DNA from: Thermocrinis sp.
GTDB taxonomy: Bacteria > Aquificota > Aquificia > Aquificales > Aquificaceae
Direction: 5' to 3'
DNA: 64,000 bases
Assembly (NCBI GenBank): GCA_020833645.1
Contig: JAJHRQ010000003.1
Coordinates: forward strand, 1-64,000
Below the pieces are notes generated by a model. The model saw only the letters and a program-made list of their open reading frames with translations, was not told where the DNA came from and did no database searches. Positions 6,348 through 35,845 of this stretch are shown here, in pieces. The position numbers and the translations under genes were made by a program. Positions within the stretch are counted from its first letter, which is position 1; each line of letters starts with the position of its first letter.

Positions 6348-7000
6348 GAAACATAGACCACTTCGTTCATGTGGAAGAGCTTCCCCACCACCCCGGGGGA
6401 AAGTCTCTCCTCCAAACTGTTTAAAAGGTCTTCCTCGGACTTCTTAAGCTGGTAGTTGGTGGTGATGAGAGTACTAAGTTGATGATTGTAGCGGTATGTG
6501 ATGAGCAAAGAAAGAACCTCTATGCTCCAATCGGAGAGCCTTTCACTGCCTAGGTCATCCAGCACCAAAACAGGAACCCTCATCAAAAACTTTAGCATCC
6601 TACTGTATTTATCTTCCTCGGAGCCTGCGTAAAATCTAAGTTGAAAGAGCATCTCCTTAGTATCAAAGAAAAAGCCTCTTACCCTTTTTTGTTTGTATAG
6701 TGCCTTTAGGATACCCACTACCAAATGGGTCTTTCCCATCTGGGGAGGTCCCACTAAGGTAATGCCCTTGCCCTCCTCGGGATTAAAATTGAAAACAAAT
6801 TCCTTACAGACTTCAAGGGCTCTCCTTTGGGCTGGGGAGATGGGTTGGTAGTTATCAAGCTCCGCACTCCAGAACTTTTTAGGAATGTTTAAAAGCCTTT
6901 GAAAGTTCTCCTCCTTAAACCTACATTGGCACAGTTCAACCACATTACCCTTATCCACAAAGCCCGTTCCCTTACAGATTGGACAGTTTTTGTCTGCCAT
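6344..7000 (-). CDS. DnaC/IstB-like AAA+ ATPase with N-terminal zinc finger
   Basis: 218 residues. An N-terminal cysteine cluster (C6, C9, C24, C26; CPICKGTG then CQC) resembles a small zinc finger. Walker A is GPPQMGKT at 85-92, Walker [10 protein letters not shown] at 145-153, and an arginine-finger region occurs near LEERLSP. This is the architecture of helicase loaders (DnaC/DnaI) and IstB transposition ATPases. With no transposase beside it, a replicative helicase loader is the better guess. No Shine-Dalgarno is visible; a TATAAT lies only three bases before ATG 7000. The N-terminal finger is also seen in other Gram-negative and Firmicute DnaC-like proteins. Confidence 0.75.
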
Positions 7001-7042
7001 GGTATTATATATATATGAGGTTATTCTAAAAATATAAACCTA

Positions 7043-7070
7043 TTGAAAGGTTTTTGGAAAGTGATATAAT
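7043..7070 (+). promoter_or_regulatory. sigma70 promoter inside element copy A
   Basis: TTGAAA at 7043-7048 and TATAAT at 7065-7070, spaced by 16 bases. The same hexamers and spacing recur in copy C although the spacer differs between copies. The predicted transcript start is about 7077, at the base of the first hairpin. Confidence 0.7.
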
Positions 7071-7076
7071 TTTTTC

Positions 7077-7324
7077 CAATGCAAAGCTTTCAGAGCTTGC
7101 TGGATACCCGTTGTGGGGCCACTGGAAGGAACCCTGAAGACGGGAAGGATTGGACAATCCTTGCCATTGTCCAGCAGGTTCTGAAGGTAGCCCTCCTCTT
7201 CCCTGTTCTTGAGAGGAGAATACTCCTCTCCTCCCGCAAGGGAGCGTGGGACAGGGTGATGGAAGGGTTAGTTCCCTTTGAGGCTGGGGGGACGGTCCCG
7301 ATAAGGGATTTTTAGAACAGCCTC
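7077..7324 (+). ncRNA. predicted structured RNA from element copy A
   Basis: The ~245 nt downstream of the internal promoter hold a run of hairpins. First is GCAAAGCT/AGCTTGC. A long-range TGCTGGA/TCCAGCA stem encloses AAGGATT-GGAC-AATCCTT. Then comes a three-way junction CCCTGT[8-bp hairpin][CTCCC-GCAA-GGGAG]ACAGGG, then AAGGG/CCCTT. Last is a 3' stem GAGGCTG/CAGCCTC enclosing TCCC-GATAA-GGGA followed by five T. Stems are invariant and loops vary between copies. Whether it is transcribed, and its function, are not known. It does not match tmRNA, 4.5S, 6S or RNase P motifs that I recognise. A guide-RNA-like relic of a TnpB/IscB element is a hypothesis only. Confidence 0.55.
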
Positions 7325-7356
7325 TGGTATTATATTAATCCCACGGGGAGAAAAAG

Positions 7357-33020: not shown

Positions 33021-33527
33021 ATGGAGCTAAAAACCCAAAGCCTAAAAGAACTTTATGAAAAGGACTTTTACCTATGGGTGTTGGAGAACCTAAAGCTTCT
33101 CAAAAATAAAGAGTTTGAGCTTGTAGATTGGGAGAACCTTTTAGAGGAGATAGAGGATATGGGACGGAGATATCTGGACAGTGTTGTTAGCCTGATGGCG
33201 GTAATTTTGGAACACCTTTACAAACGGGAAAACTTTAAGTACAACGAGTATGTAGGGCACAGCTGGATAAAGAGCATAAACAACGCAAGGAATGAGCTTG
33301 ATACCATCTTTGAGAGACACCCAAGCATAAGGAAAAAATCAATGGAGGAACTCTCCATCGCTTGGCGCATTGCTATGAAAAGGCTTACGAGGTGGTTTGA
33401 AGAGCCTCAAAACCACCACATAGCTAAAAAATACTTTGGAAAGCTTCCCACAGAAAAGGATTTTCCACAAGAATGCCCTTATACCTTTGAGCAGGTGATG
33501 GAGTACAAGCCTTGGGTTGATGAGTGA
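33021..33527 (+). CDS. DUF29 family protein
   Basis: 168 residues. It matches the pattern of DUF29: an N-terminal YEKDFYLWVLENLKLLKNKE, then DWENLLEEIEDMGRRYLDSV, a helix with LEHLYKR and a C-terminal ECPYTFEQVME. The family is helical, of unknown function and often multicopy in cyanobacteria and Aquificae. No SD; a TATATT box lies eight bases before the ATG. Element relics lie 24 bases before and 23 bases after the gene, in the same orientation, suggesting the block may have moved as a unit. Confidence 0.75.
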   Translation: MELKTQSLKELYEKDFYLWVLENLKLLKNKEFELVDWENLLEEIEDMGRRYLDSVVSLMAVILEHLYKRENFKYNEYVGHSWIKSINNARNELDTIFERHPSIRKKSMEELSIAWRIAMKRLTRWFEEPQNHHIAKKYFGKLPTEKDFPQECPYTFEQVMEYKPWVDE

Positions 33528-33550: not shown

Positions 33551-33580
33551 ATCCCGATGAGGGATTTTTAGAACAGCCTC
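33551..33580 (+). repeat. short right-end relic of the dispersed element (relic B)
   Basis: ATCCCGATGAGGGATTTTTA followed by GAACAGCCTC is identical in form to the last ~30 bases of the full copies, including the TCCC-GATGA-GGGA hairpin. The preceding sequence does not match, so only the right end remains or was ever present. Confidence 0.65.
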
Positions 33581-33833
33581 AAAAGTCCGTTGCCTGAAAA
33601 AGGCTACTGGCTTATACTTAATCAAAACCTACAAAGGAGTTTTGCCATGAGAGAATGCCTAAGGCTGATAACCGAGAGGCGGTCAATTACATTCTTTGAC
33701 CCAAACAGAGAAGTTCCCAATGAACTTATAAAGGAGATTTTAGAGATCTCCACCACCGCACCCTCCGGATACAACCTCCAACCTTGGGAAGTGGTAGTAG
33801 TAAAGGACAAGGCCGTTCTAAAAAACAAACCTA

Positions 33834-33861
33834 TTGAAAAGTTTCTGGGAAGTGATATAAT
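33834..33861 (+). promoter_or_regulatory. sigma70 promoter inside element copy C
   Basis: TTGAAA 33834-33839 and TATAAT 33856-33861, 16-base spacer, as in copy A. It could also drive the downstream nitroreductase remnant and MFS gene. Confidence 0.7.
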
Positions 33862-33867
33862 TTTATC

Positions 33868-34113
33868 TGTGCAAAGCTTTCAGAGCTTGCTGGATGCCCG
33901 TTGTGGGACCACTGGAAGGAACCCTGAAGACGGGAAGGATTTTAAAATCCTTGCCATTGTCCAGCAGGTTCTGAAGGTAGCCCTCCTCTTCCCTGTTCTT
34001 GAGAGGAGAATACTCCTCTCCTCCCGTGAGGGAGTGTGGGACAGGGTGAGGAAAGGGTTAGTTCCCTTTGAGGCTGGGGGGACGTCCCGATGAGGGATTT
34101 TTAAAACAGCCTC
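33868..34113 (+). ncRNA. predicted structured RNA from element copy C
   Basis: Same predicted fold as copy A. The differences lie mainly in loops: TTAA for GGAC in the 7-bp hairpin, and GTGA for GCAA in the GNRA-capped hairpin, both still GNRA. The AAAGGG/CCCTTT hairpin gains one pair relative to copy A. This pattern supports selection on, or recent shared descent of, RNA structure. Confidence 0.55.
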
Positions 34114-34501
34114 ACATAGTGTTTATCGCAAACCCAAGGGCAGGCTTTGAGCACGTGGATAAGGTTTTGGACAGCTGGGTGGAGCTTGGCTACATACCCA
34201 AAGAAGCAAAGGAGAAGCTAAAAGAGAACATCCAGAGGGGATGGACCGACAGAGAGAAGGCTGTGAGAAAGGCTATAAGGGATACCGCCCTCTTTTGTAT
34301 GACGGTTATGATCGTAGCAAGGGCTTATGGGCTTGAGACCCATCCGATGGAGGGCTTTGACGAAGAGAGATTAAAGGAGTTCTTGGGGGTAGATAAGGAT
34401 AAGGTTATACCCGTTATGCTTGCCATAGGATACAAGGACCCTCAAAGGGAGCTACTTCCAAGGGCATACCGCTTTAAGTTTGAAGAATTTGGCAGGTTTC
34501 T

Positions 34502-35845
34502 ATGAGGTTTATAAACACAGACCTAACCTGCAGGCTTGACGCCCTTCCCTGGACGGGCTTTCACACCAGGTTTGTTTTAGCCCTTGGCATCACTTGGGTC
34601 TTGGACGCCTTTGAAGTAGTCATAGTAAGTGCAGTCCTAAAGCCCATGGCAAAAGCCCTCCAATTTACCACCCAGCAGGCTTCTCTGATGGTAAGCGGTT
34701 TTCTCATAGGTGCCATATTAGGGTCCTTGATCTTTGGCTACTTGGCAGACAGGTTCGGCAGGAAAAAACTCTTTATTCTTACATTACTTCTGTATGCTGG
34801 GGGCACTTTTTTAACGGGCTTTGCCAATAGTTTTGAATCCGCCTTGCTCTTTAGGATCTTGGCGGGTGCTGGCTTGGGTGGAGAGTTTGCAGCGATCCAG
34901 TCCGCAATAGACGAGTTTGTGCCCGCCCGCCACAGGGGAAAGGTGGATGGCACCATCACCGCCCTTTGGAACTTGGGAAGTATTATGGCTTCTTTATCTG
35001 CTTTGTATCTTTTAAAGCAATTTGACGAAGGCTTTGCTTGGAGGATTGCCTTTTTTATTGGTGGTCTTTTGACCCTTTTGATCATATACATAAGGATATA
35101 TGTGCCCGAATCTCCCAGATGGCTCATCTCCAAAGGAAGGCTGAAGGAAGCGGAGGAGATCGTCAAAAAAGTGGAAAGAGAGGCGGGCATCTCTCCAAAG
35201 GTGGAAAGTTGTCAAATTCCCGTTTTTGAGGGTAGCATATGGGATGCCACCAAGCTGATCCTAACCAAATACTGGTGGAGGTTTCTCTTTAGTGCGTCGA
35301 TGAGTTTTACCATACTTACCACCTACTACGGCATGCTCGCCTTTCTACCCTTGGTTCTTTCAAAGGTCTATAATCTTAGCTCCAAGCAGGTCTCCGAGGT
35401 GCTCTTCTTCGGAAGTGTGGGGGGACTGATTGGGGGTCTTGTGGTAGCCTTTTTAAACGACCGAGTGGGTAGAAAGGTGCTTGGGGTTAGCATAAGCGGG
35501 CTCTCCGCTTTGGCGGTTTTTCTGTTTTTGCTAACGGACGCAAACCCTAAAGTTCTTTACTTTTTGTATTCGTTGATCGCTTTTTCCTTTGCCTCTGTGG
35601 CATACGTGATCGCAACGGAGATATACCCATCCTACATAAGGGCATACGCCATAGGGGTGCTCTCCGTTGTGGGAAGGCTCTCGGGTGCCTTTGCACCGGT
35701 GCTTGTGATAGCTTTGGCAAACCAAGACTACCGGCTTGGACTTTTGTGTATATCCCTCTTTTGGCTTGTGGGATTTTTTGCCTTTGTGATATACGCCATC
35801 AAGGGAAAAGAGACCAAGGGCATGCCCATAGAACAGATAAGTTGA
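34502..35845 (+). CDS. MFS transporter, metabolite:H+ symporter type
   Basis: 447 residues with twelve predicted membrane helices. The MFS loop motif is GYLADRFGRKKLF between helices 2 and 3, with the sugar-porter-like PESPRWLISKGRLKEAEEIV in the central loop and a second GRKVLG loop in the C-terminal half. It resembles the aromatic-acid/metabolite:H+ symporters (SV2/KgtP-like group). The substrate is unknown. It begins with an ATGA overlap on the broken nitroreductase gene. Confidence 0.8.
   Translation: MRFINTDLTCRLDALPWTGFHTRFVLALGITWVLDAFEVVIVSAVLKPMAKALQFTTQQASLMVSGFLIGAILGSLIFGYLADRFGRKKLFILTLLLYAGGTFLTGFANSFESALLFRILAGAGLGGEFAAIQSAIDEFVPARHRGKVDGTITALWNLGSIMASLSALYLLKQFDEGFAWRIAFFIGGLLTLLIIYIRIYVPESPRWLISKGRLKEAEEIVKKVEREAGISPKVESCQIPVFEGSIWDATKLILTKYWWRFLFSASMSFTILTTYYGMLAFLPLVLSKVYNLSSKQVSEVLFFGSVGGLIGGLVVAFLNDRVGRKVLGVSISGLSALAVFLFLLTDANPKVLYFLYSLIAFSFASVAYVIATEIYPSYIRAYAIGVLSVVGRLSGAFAPVLVIALANQDYRLGLLCISLFWLVGFFAFVIYAIKGKETKGMPIEQIS

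Follow-up and report, generated by a model that had tools for sequence, protein, structure and literature searches.

A miniature inverted-repeat element of Thermocrinis with a predicted TnpB guide-RNA scaffold

A 308-bp element in a 64,000-nucleotide stretch of a Thermocrinis sp. genome (assembly GCA_020833645.1, contig JAJHRQ010000003.1, positions 1 to 64,000, hereafter the window) appears to be a miniature, non-autonomous member of a bacterial transposon family that is bounded by terminal inverted repeats (TIRs) and contains TnpB. Judging from sequence comparisons, the element carries a self-promoted guide-RNA scaffold, and we propose that it is both moved and homed in trans; we give this reading a probability of about three in four. 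The original prediction had described a mobile, self-promoted structured RNA and had considered a relation either to TnpB-associated guide RNAs or to a MITE. Both ideas find support together: the element has TIRs, target-site duplications (TSDs) and partner elements, and it shares a stem, the motif GGAAGGAA and its end position with the RNAs borne on tnpB elements. Thermocrinis is a hot-spring bacterium.

Organization of the element

The components of the element and its surroundings are listed in Table 1. The right end is that of the originally predicted span (7024 to 7324), but the TIRs, which in this copy are 17 bp long and 88% complementary, place the left end seven bases further out. With its short length, lack of coding sequence, TIRs, TSD and several copies, the element is a MITE. 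The helix of the third RNA domain closes exactly at the last base of the element, and the predicted guide segment beyond it matches the empty alleles beside TGCCA.

Table 1. Features of the two MITE copies and their surroundings in the window
Feature	Position	Strand	Basis
MITE copy 1, whole element, 308 bp	7017..7324	+	Copy search; TIRs; empty allele 100% identical in G006
Left TIR, GAGGTTATTCTAAAAAT	7017..7033	+	Identical TIR on tnpB and DDE elements
Right TIR, ATTTTTAGAACAGCCTC; also 3' strand of the terminal RNA helix	7308..7324	+	
TGCCA, putative TAM or transposase target motif, adjoining the target duplication 5'	6995..6999	+	
Left target-duplication copy, TGGTATTATAT; then 6 extra bases (ATATAT) before the element	7000..7010	+	Empty allele comparison
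Right target-duplication copy, TGGTATTATAT	7325..7335	+	Empty allele comparison
Predicted guide segment, adjoining the right end	7325..7344	+	Inferred from TnpB omegaRNA layout
Promoter TTGAAA-16-TATAAT, positioned as the tnpB promoter of the full-length element	7043..7070	+	
RNA domain 1: long, internally branched stem with covariation	7086..7188	+	
GGAAGGAA motif, shared by almost every omegaRNA in this TnpB clade	7124..7131	+	
RNA domain 2: three-way junction	7189..7269	+	Minimum-energy fold
RNA domain 3: terminal hairpin, helix GAGGCTG (7280-7286) / CAGCCTC (7318-7324)	7280..7324	+	
MITE copy 2; left TIR decayed, no target duplication	33809..34113	+	Same site occupied in G006
Nitroreductase-like gene, 5' piece, interrupted by copy 2 (putative; named from sequence alone)	33647..33808	+	
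Nitroreductase-like gene, 3' piece (putative name)	34114..34505	+	
Solo relic of the right end of a family member	33552..33580	+	

Copies, distribution and mobility

A second copy exists in the window as predicted, although it starts upstream of the 33816 first given, in a decayed left TIR; the two copies are indeed nearly identical, at a measured 93% rather than 94%. The second copy replaces 66 bp of the nitroreductase-like gene, which is intact in G002, with those 66 bp in place of the insertion. As it is common to the window genome and G006 at one site, copy 2 is the older of the two. The solo relic lies just downstream of an ORF at 33021-33527 and is also present in G006 (L033).

The Thermocrinis genome searched (1.26 Mb in 51 contigs, 88% complete) contains four full-length MITE copies and about 25 partial relatives. 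Further copies in related genomes, on which the original prediction depended, were found in genomes of the same genus and in one Hydrogenobacter; phage and plasmid collections gave no match. In G004 and G005, both draft genomes of the same genus, MITEs are present and tnpB occurs as fragments only. Two records, labelled Candidatus Caldipriscus (L276, with the same right end) and Candidatus Calescibacterium (L277, with both inverted repeats), represent either horizontal transfer or mis-binned contigs.

The element moves, as had been proposed, on the evidence of target duplications and of empty alleles in sister genomes. Many copies are flanked by duplications of 9-13 bp, and many others have none. 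Gap-free empty alleles were recovered in sister genomes for 10 insertions, and in each a short motif stands directly before the duplicated bases. The empty allele of copy 1 occurs in G002, G004 and G005 as well as in G006, and in G006, G002 and G005 it reads TGCCATGGTATTATATTAATCCC.

The parent element and its predicted nuclease

A search for inverted repeats revealed pairs of TIRs 1642 bp apart, which delimit tnpB elements of approximately 1640 bp. These have the same TIRs as the MITE, a 523-aa ORF and the same structured RNA at their end. The 523-aa protein scored 55 bits against the NCBIfam model TIGR01766 (TnpB-related; cut-off, 32), and its AlphaFold2 model (pLDDT 81) retrieved Cas12f/TnpB structures as the top Foldseek matches (AsCas12f, E 2e-10; ISDra2 TnpB, 4e-5). 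Residues D226, E289 and D358, which occupy the RuvC positions, do not vary among 17 related proteins. Taken together, sequence, modelled fold and RuvC D-E-D residues identify the protein as a predicted TnpB/Cas12f-family nuclease. The OrfB_IS605 Pfam domain and a zinc ribbon are typical of TnpB proteins, albeit not universal among them. A profile search of the genome with PF01385 (OrfB_IS605) gave no match, and the identification was therefore based on TIGR01766, fold and alignment. Against PF07282 the protein scored below the cut-off, the zinc-ribbon cysteines (CxxC) are absent from the 17-protein TnpB alignment, and a sequence search of solved structures gave a marginal match only.

The tnpB ORF overlaps the structured RNA and stops 9-22 nt before the right end of the element, and the RNA stops exactly at that end. 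In the parent elements, the RNA thus spans from within the 3' end of tnpB to the right end, which is the position of an omegaRNA scaffold. The MITE retains the promoter at the left end and the terminal ~240 nt, most of tnpB being absent; we take it to be a deletion derivative of the ~1640-bp element. Its RNA is only 72-76% identical to those of the resident tnpB elements, so that its loading by TnpB in trans is treated here as an assumption.

The same genome encodes a TnpB of a branch without TIRs (G000:C50:12084-13622; L158), which is 44% identical. TnpB relatives in Caldanaerobacter, Thermus, Ammonifex, Fervidicola and Sulfurihydrogenibium have no such repeats and end in ACCAGG, and the inverted-repeat form therefore looks derived. 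Within the same family, genera g10 and g11 have this form too, and Candidatus Calescibacterium has it with a 9-bp duplication. Members of the clade without TIRs (L180-L184, L281-L286, L325-L341) often start at or near GGAGG, which resembles a ribosome-binding site, and finish with ACCAGG; Shine-Dalgarno sites may play a part in how they insert.

A DDE transposase element with the same ends

A 934-bp element (L069) has the same TIRs, a 10-bp TSD and a 258-aa DDE transposase. The latter contains DDE_Tnp_1 (48 bits) and matches IS5 and IS4 models, all below the curated cut-offs, which makes its assignment to an IS family tentative. One complete DDE copy was seen, with an N-terminus that is short relative to the IS5 model. 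From its sequence, L069 is the predicted autonomous partner with the same ends. In species G001, a T-to-G variant of the TIR (GTTCGAAAAA) is found on both tnpB and DDE-type elements, and the TIRs of the two thus seem to track each other. Because of the identical TIRs and the similar TSD length, the DDE transposase of the 934-bp element is the likely mover of all three elements. Both a TnpB and a transposase with the same ends, for which the original prediction suggested a search, are therefore present in the host genome. That prediction was to fall if the element matched a known RNA family or a known IS; an Rfam search gave no match above the gathering threshold, in line with its statement that it recognized no RNA family here, but the TIRs belong to a DDE insertion sequence.

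Several arrangements of these elements were also observed. Locus L175 (782-1055) is a hybrid that has the right end of an omegaRNA element on one side and that of a DDE insertion sequence on the other, with TGTCA outside the DDE end; L168 (1-452) holds two adjacent DDE-type MITEs that share one 11-bp flank (AGATTGATTGA); and in L151 (1924) a DDE-type element has inserted ~10 nt away from a -35 box (TTGACA) that belongs to a tnpB element. Promoter boxes of this sequence may be preferred sites of insertion in general.

Target motif and orientation

The motif that precedes the duplicated bases, 9-13 nt outside the left end, has the form GNCA (TGGCA, TGTCA, TGCCA). Outside the omega/tnpB elements it was found at 37 of 55 left ends and 2 of 72 right ends (Fisher, 5e-16); the reversed sequence, ACNG, occurred at 1 of 55, and the background is 6.4%. 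The omegaRNA-bearing elements are thus oriented to GNCA at a ratio of 37:2 (p 3e-9), as would be expected if a TnpB with a guide from the flank has to locate GNCA together with the guide sequence in the empty site. DDE-only elements show (T)GTCA at the same distance at 18 of 43 ends, with no clear bias of orientation (11:5, p 0.21; two misclassed ends left out).

Since a symmetric transposase should be indifferent to the direction of an element, the strict orientation of the omegaRNA-bearing copies points to the RNA. However, DDE-only elements favour GTCA too, so the motif, in part or as a whole, may come from the transposase, and GNCA is no proof of a TAM. We still consider it somewhat more likely than not that GNCA is a TAM. 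A plausible alternative, to which we give somewhat less than an even chance, is that GNCA is a target preference of the DDE transposase, the orientation resulting from asymmetric binding of the ends, with no part for TnpB in the location of the element. This alternative bears on the motif alone, and the element could still be an omegaRNA MITE. The occurrence of (T)GTCA 9-12 nt outside one end of DDE-only and of distant DDE elements agrees with such a preference, whereas three observations speak against it: the DDE elements have nearly always GTCA (17 of 18) and the omega elements also GGCA, GCCA and GACA (18 of 37; Fisher p 0.002), the strict orientation is confined to omega elements, and the TIRs of the two ends are near identical.

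Promoter, RNA structure and conservation

The sigma70 promoter recognized in the original prediction matches the consensus at 11 of 12 positions, and 11 of 18 MITE-like copies have it. Folding is very stable, at -141.8 kcal/mol (z -6.5) for copy 1 and -134.1 kcal/mol (z -6.9) for copy 2, and none of 100 shuffled sequences was as stable in either case. The three-way junction described earlier is part of the minimum-energy fold, and the loops of the two copies differ as described (GGAC/TTAA, GCAA/GTGA). A terminator scan identified no intrinsic terminator at the right end of the MITE.

Covariation was assessed in an alignment (A2) of the region around GGAAGGAA at the tnpB 3' end, comprising 50 elements with TnpB identities from ~40% upward. 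The enclosing stem of domain 1 is paired in 98.7% of the cells, and both sides have changed in a compensatory manner in 8 of 15 pairs. The covariation lies above background, as the original prediction required, with a domain 1 score of 0.441 against 0.232 in shuffled alignments (0 of 500) and at most 0.152 in slid ones, subject to the tool's caveat on relatedness. RNAalifold applied to a mixed alignment (A1) that contained shortened tnpB rows gave a weak consensus (-14.7 kcal/mol), and A2 was used instead. Distant members, folded as single sequences, have their three domains in the same order. Secondary structure is thus conserved across the tnpB loci, as in an omegaRNA.

The terminal helix is formed by the final 7 nt of the element and a partner strand located 45-60 nt upstream. 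It reads CCTGGTC/GACCAGG in Anaerolineae relatives without inverted repeats, in contrast to GAGGCTG/CAGCCTC here. The helix has thus been swapped as a whole: the transposon end also serves as RNA sequence, and the strand with which it pairs has changed along with it. The helix is not clear in some lineages without TIRs and in some MITEs, and some MITEs (L035) have a shortened form of it.

Variant types in the MITEs are spread evenly over the three codon positions (38, 41 and 37, over 83 sites each). The corresponding variation per site is 0.55, 0.36 and 1.19 in the body of tnpB and 0.48, 0.44 and 0.61 in its RNA-overlapping part. The flat profile indicates that the MITE is kept as RNA or DNA and not as protein; together with the covarying main stem, it upholds the earlier view that the RNA, and not a protein, is conserved.

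A dead deletion derivative, whose RNA region is kept only for a right end needed by the transposase and which spread purely as a DDE MITE without guide function, is an unlikely but sizeable alternative. TIRs, TSDs and a DDE insertion sequence with identical ends suffice for mobility, MITEs persist where tnpB is reduced to fragments, and DDE-only MITEs have spread in the same genomes. Against this stand the maintenance of ~240 nt over species with flat codon-position variation, the promoter in more than half of the MITE-like copies, and the single orientation of the omega elements to GNCA as opposed to the mixed one of DDE-only elements. Far less credible is an independent RNA with a regulatory or catalytic role (riboswitch, ribozyme or toxin-antitoxin RNA), spread by a MITE and unrelated to TnpB: the strong fold and the promoter would suit it, but homology connects the 3' half of the MITE with the 3' end of the tnpB element, the stem, the GGAAGGAA motif and the end position are common to the omegaRNAs of the clade, and Rfam offers no match. 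We rejected a small protein in the C-terminal frame of tnpB, a very improbable reading given the equal variation at the three codon positions and the frameshifting indels among copies at the left end, even though the frame is open in most copies (up to ~98 codons, often with an ATG).

Proposed mechanism

TnpB and omegaRNA are already known, and TnpB is thought to retain IS605 and IS607 elements by cutting their empty sites. For the guide-RNA-bearing MITE, we propose that an internal deletion joined the left-end tnpB promoter to the right-end omegaRNA region. The product would be cut and pasted by its TIRs through a DDE transposase supplied in trans, presumably by the 934-bp element, giving the 9-13-bp duplications. 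Its own promoter would transcribe the RNA past the right end into the flank, and the guide would start with the TSD and continue into the flanking sequence. TnpB from resident full-length copies may then load the MITE RNA in trans and cut the empty allele at GNCA plus guide match, whereupon repair from filled sister copies would copy the element back, empty-site cleavage driving its retention. Recognition of the empty site by TnpB would explain why the motif is on the left in the omegaRNA-bearing copies.

Comparison with known systems

An IS200/IS605 or IS607 element, the ends of which are without TIRs or TSDs, was considered and rejected, since both are present here. Like the IS200/IS605, IS607 and IS1341-type elements, the present family has a TnpB/Cas12f-family nuclease, a guide RNA (omegaRNA or reRNA; predicted here) that overlaps the tnpB 3' end and ends at the right end, and a motif to the left of the insertion. 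It differs from them in having DDE-type TIRs and 9-13-bp duplications in place of Y1 or serine recombinase ends, in the separation of the candidate motif from the left end by the duplication, and in a TnpB that shows no CxxC zinc ribbon in the alignment. The bacterial TnpB literature that we found deals with IS605, IS607 and IS1341 only (PMC9956272), and we found no open-access report in which a bacterial TnpB belongs to a DDE/TIR transposon that also has a self-promoted MITE with the omegaRNA alone.

The element resembles other bacterial MITEs in its short length, TIRs, TSDs, several copies and an autonomous partner with the same ends, but bears in addition a predicted self-promoted omegaRNA scaffold that covaries with those of active-looking nucleases. 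The 934-bp partner is like IS5/IS4-type DDE insertion sequences in its DDE_Tnp_1 domain and its matches to the IS5 and IS4 models, from which it is set apart by scores that all fall short of the curated cut-offs.

In eukaryotes, Fanzor1 transposons have inverted repeats and duplications together with a guide RNA (PMC10711439). As in the Fanzor1 / Fanzor2* elements (Yoon et al. 2023, PMC10711439), a predicted RNA-guided TnpB homologue is found here inside a transposon with TIRs and TSDs, and bases of the TIR form part of the predicted guide-RNA scaffold. The likeness is one of layout; the present family differs in being bacterial and in having guide-only MITEs, and its TSD would act as guide and not as scaffold. 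That the family is a bacterial counterpart of Fanzor, in which a DDE transposon captured a TnpB-omegaRNA unit, the terminal helix was rebuilt around the TIR, and guide-only MITEs home via the nuclease in trans, is a suggestion to which we give only just less than even odds. As a thermophilic TnpB that lacks a zinc ribbon, the 523-aa protein is also a candidate small nuclease. A bacterial DDE transposon that had indeed acquired TnpB would make the retention strategy independent of transposase chemistry, in parallel with the eukaryotic Fanzor transposons. Guide-only MITEs would then exploit transposase and nuclease alike as parasites, and their insertion sites would offer a direct record of many natural guides, targets and motifs.
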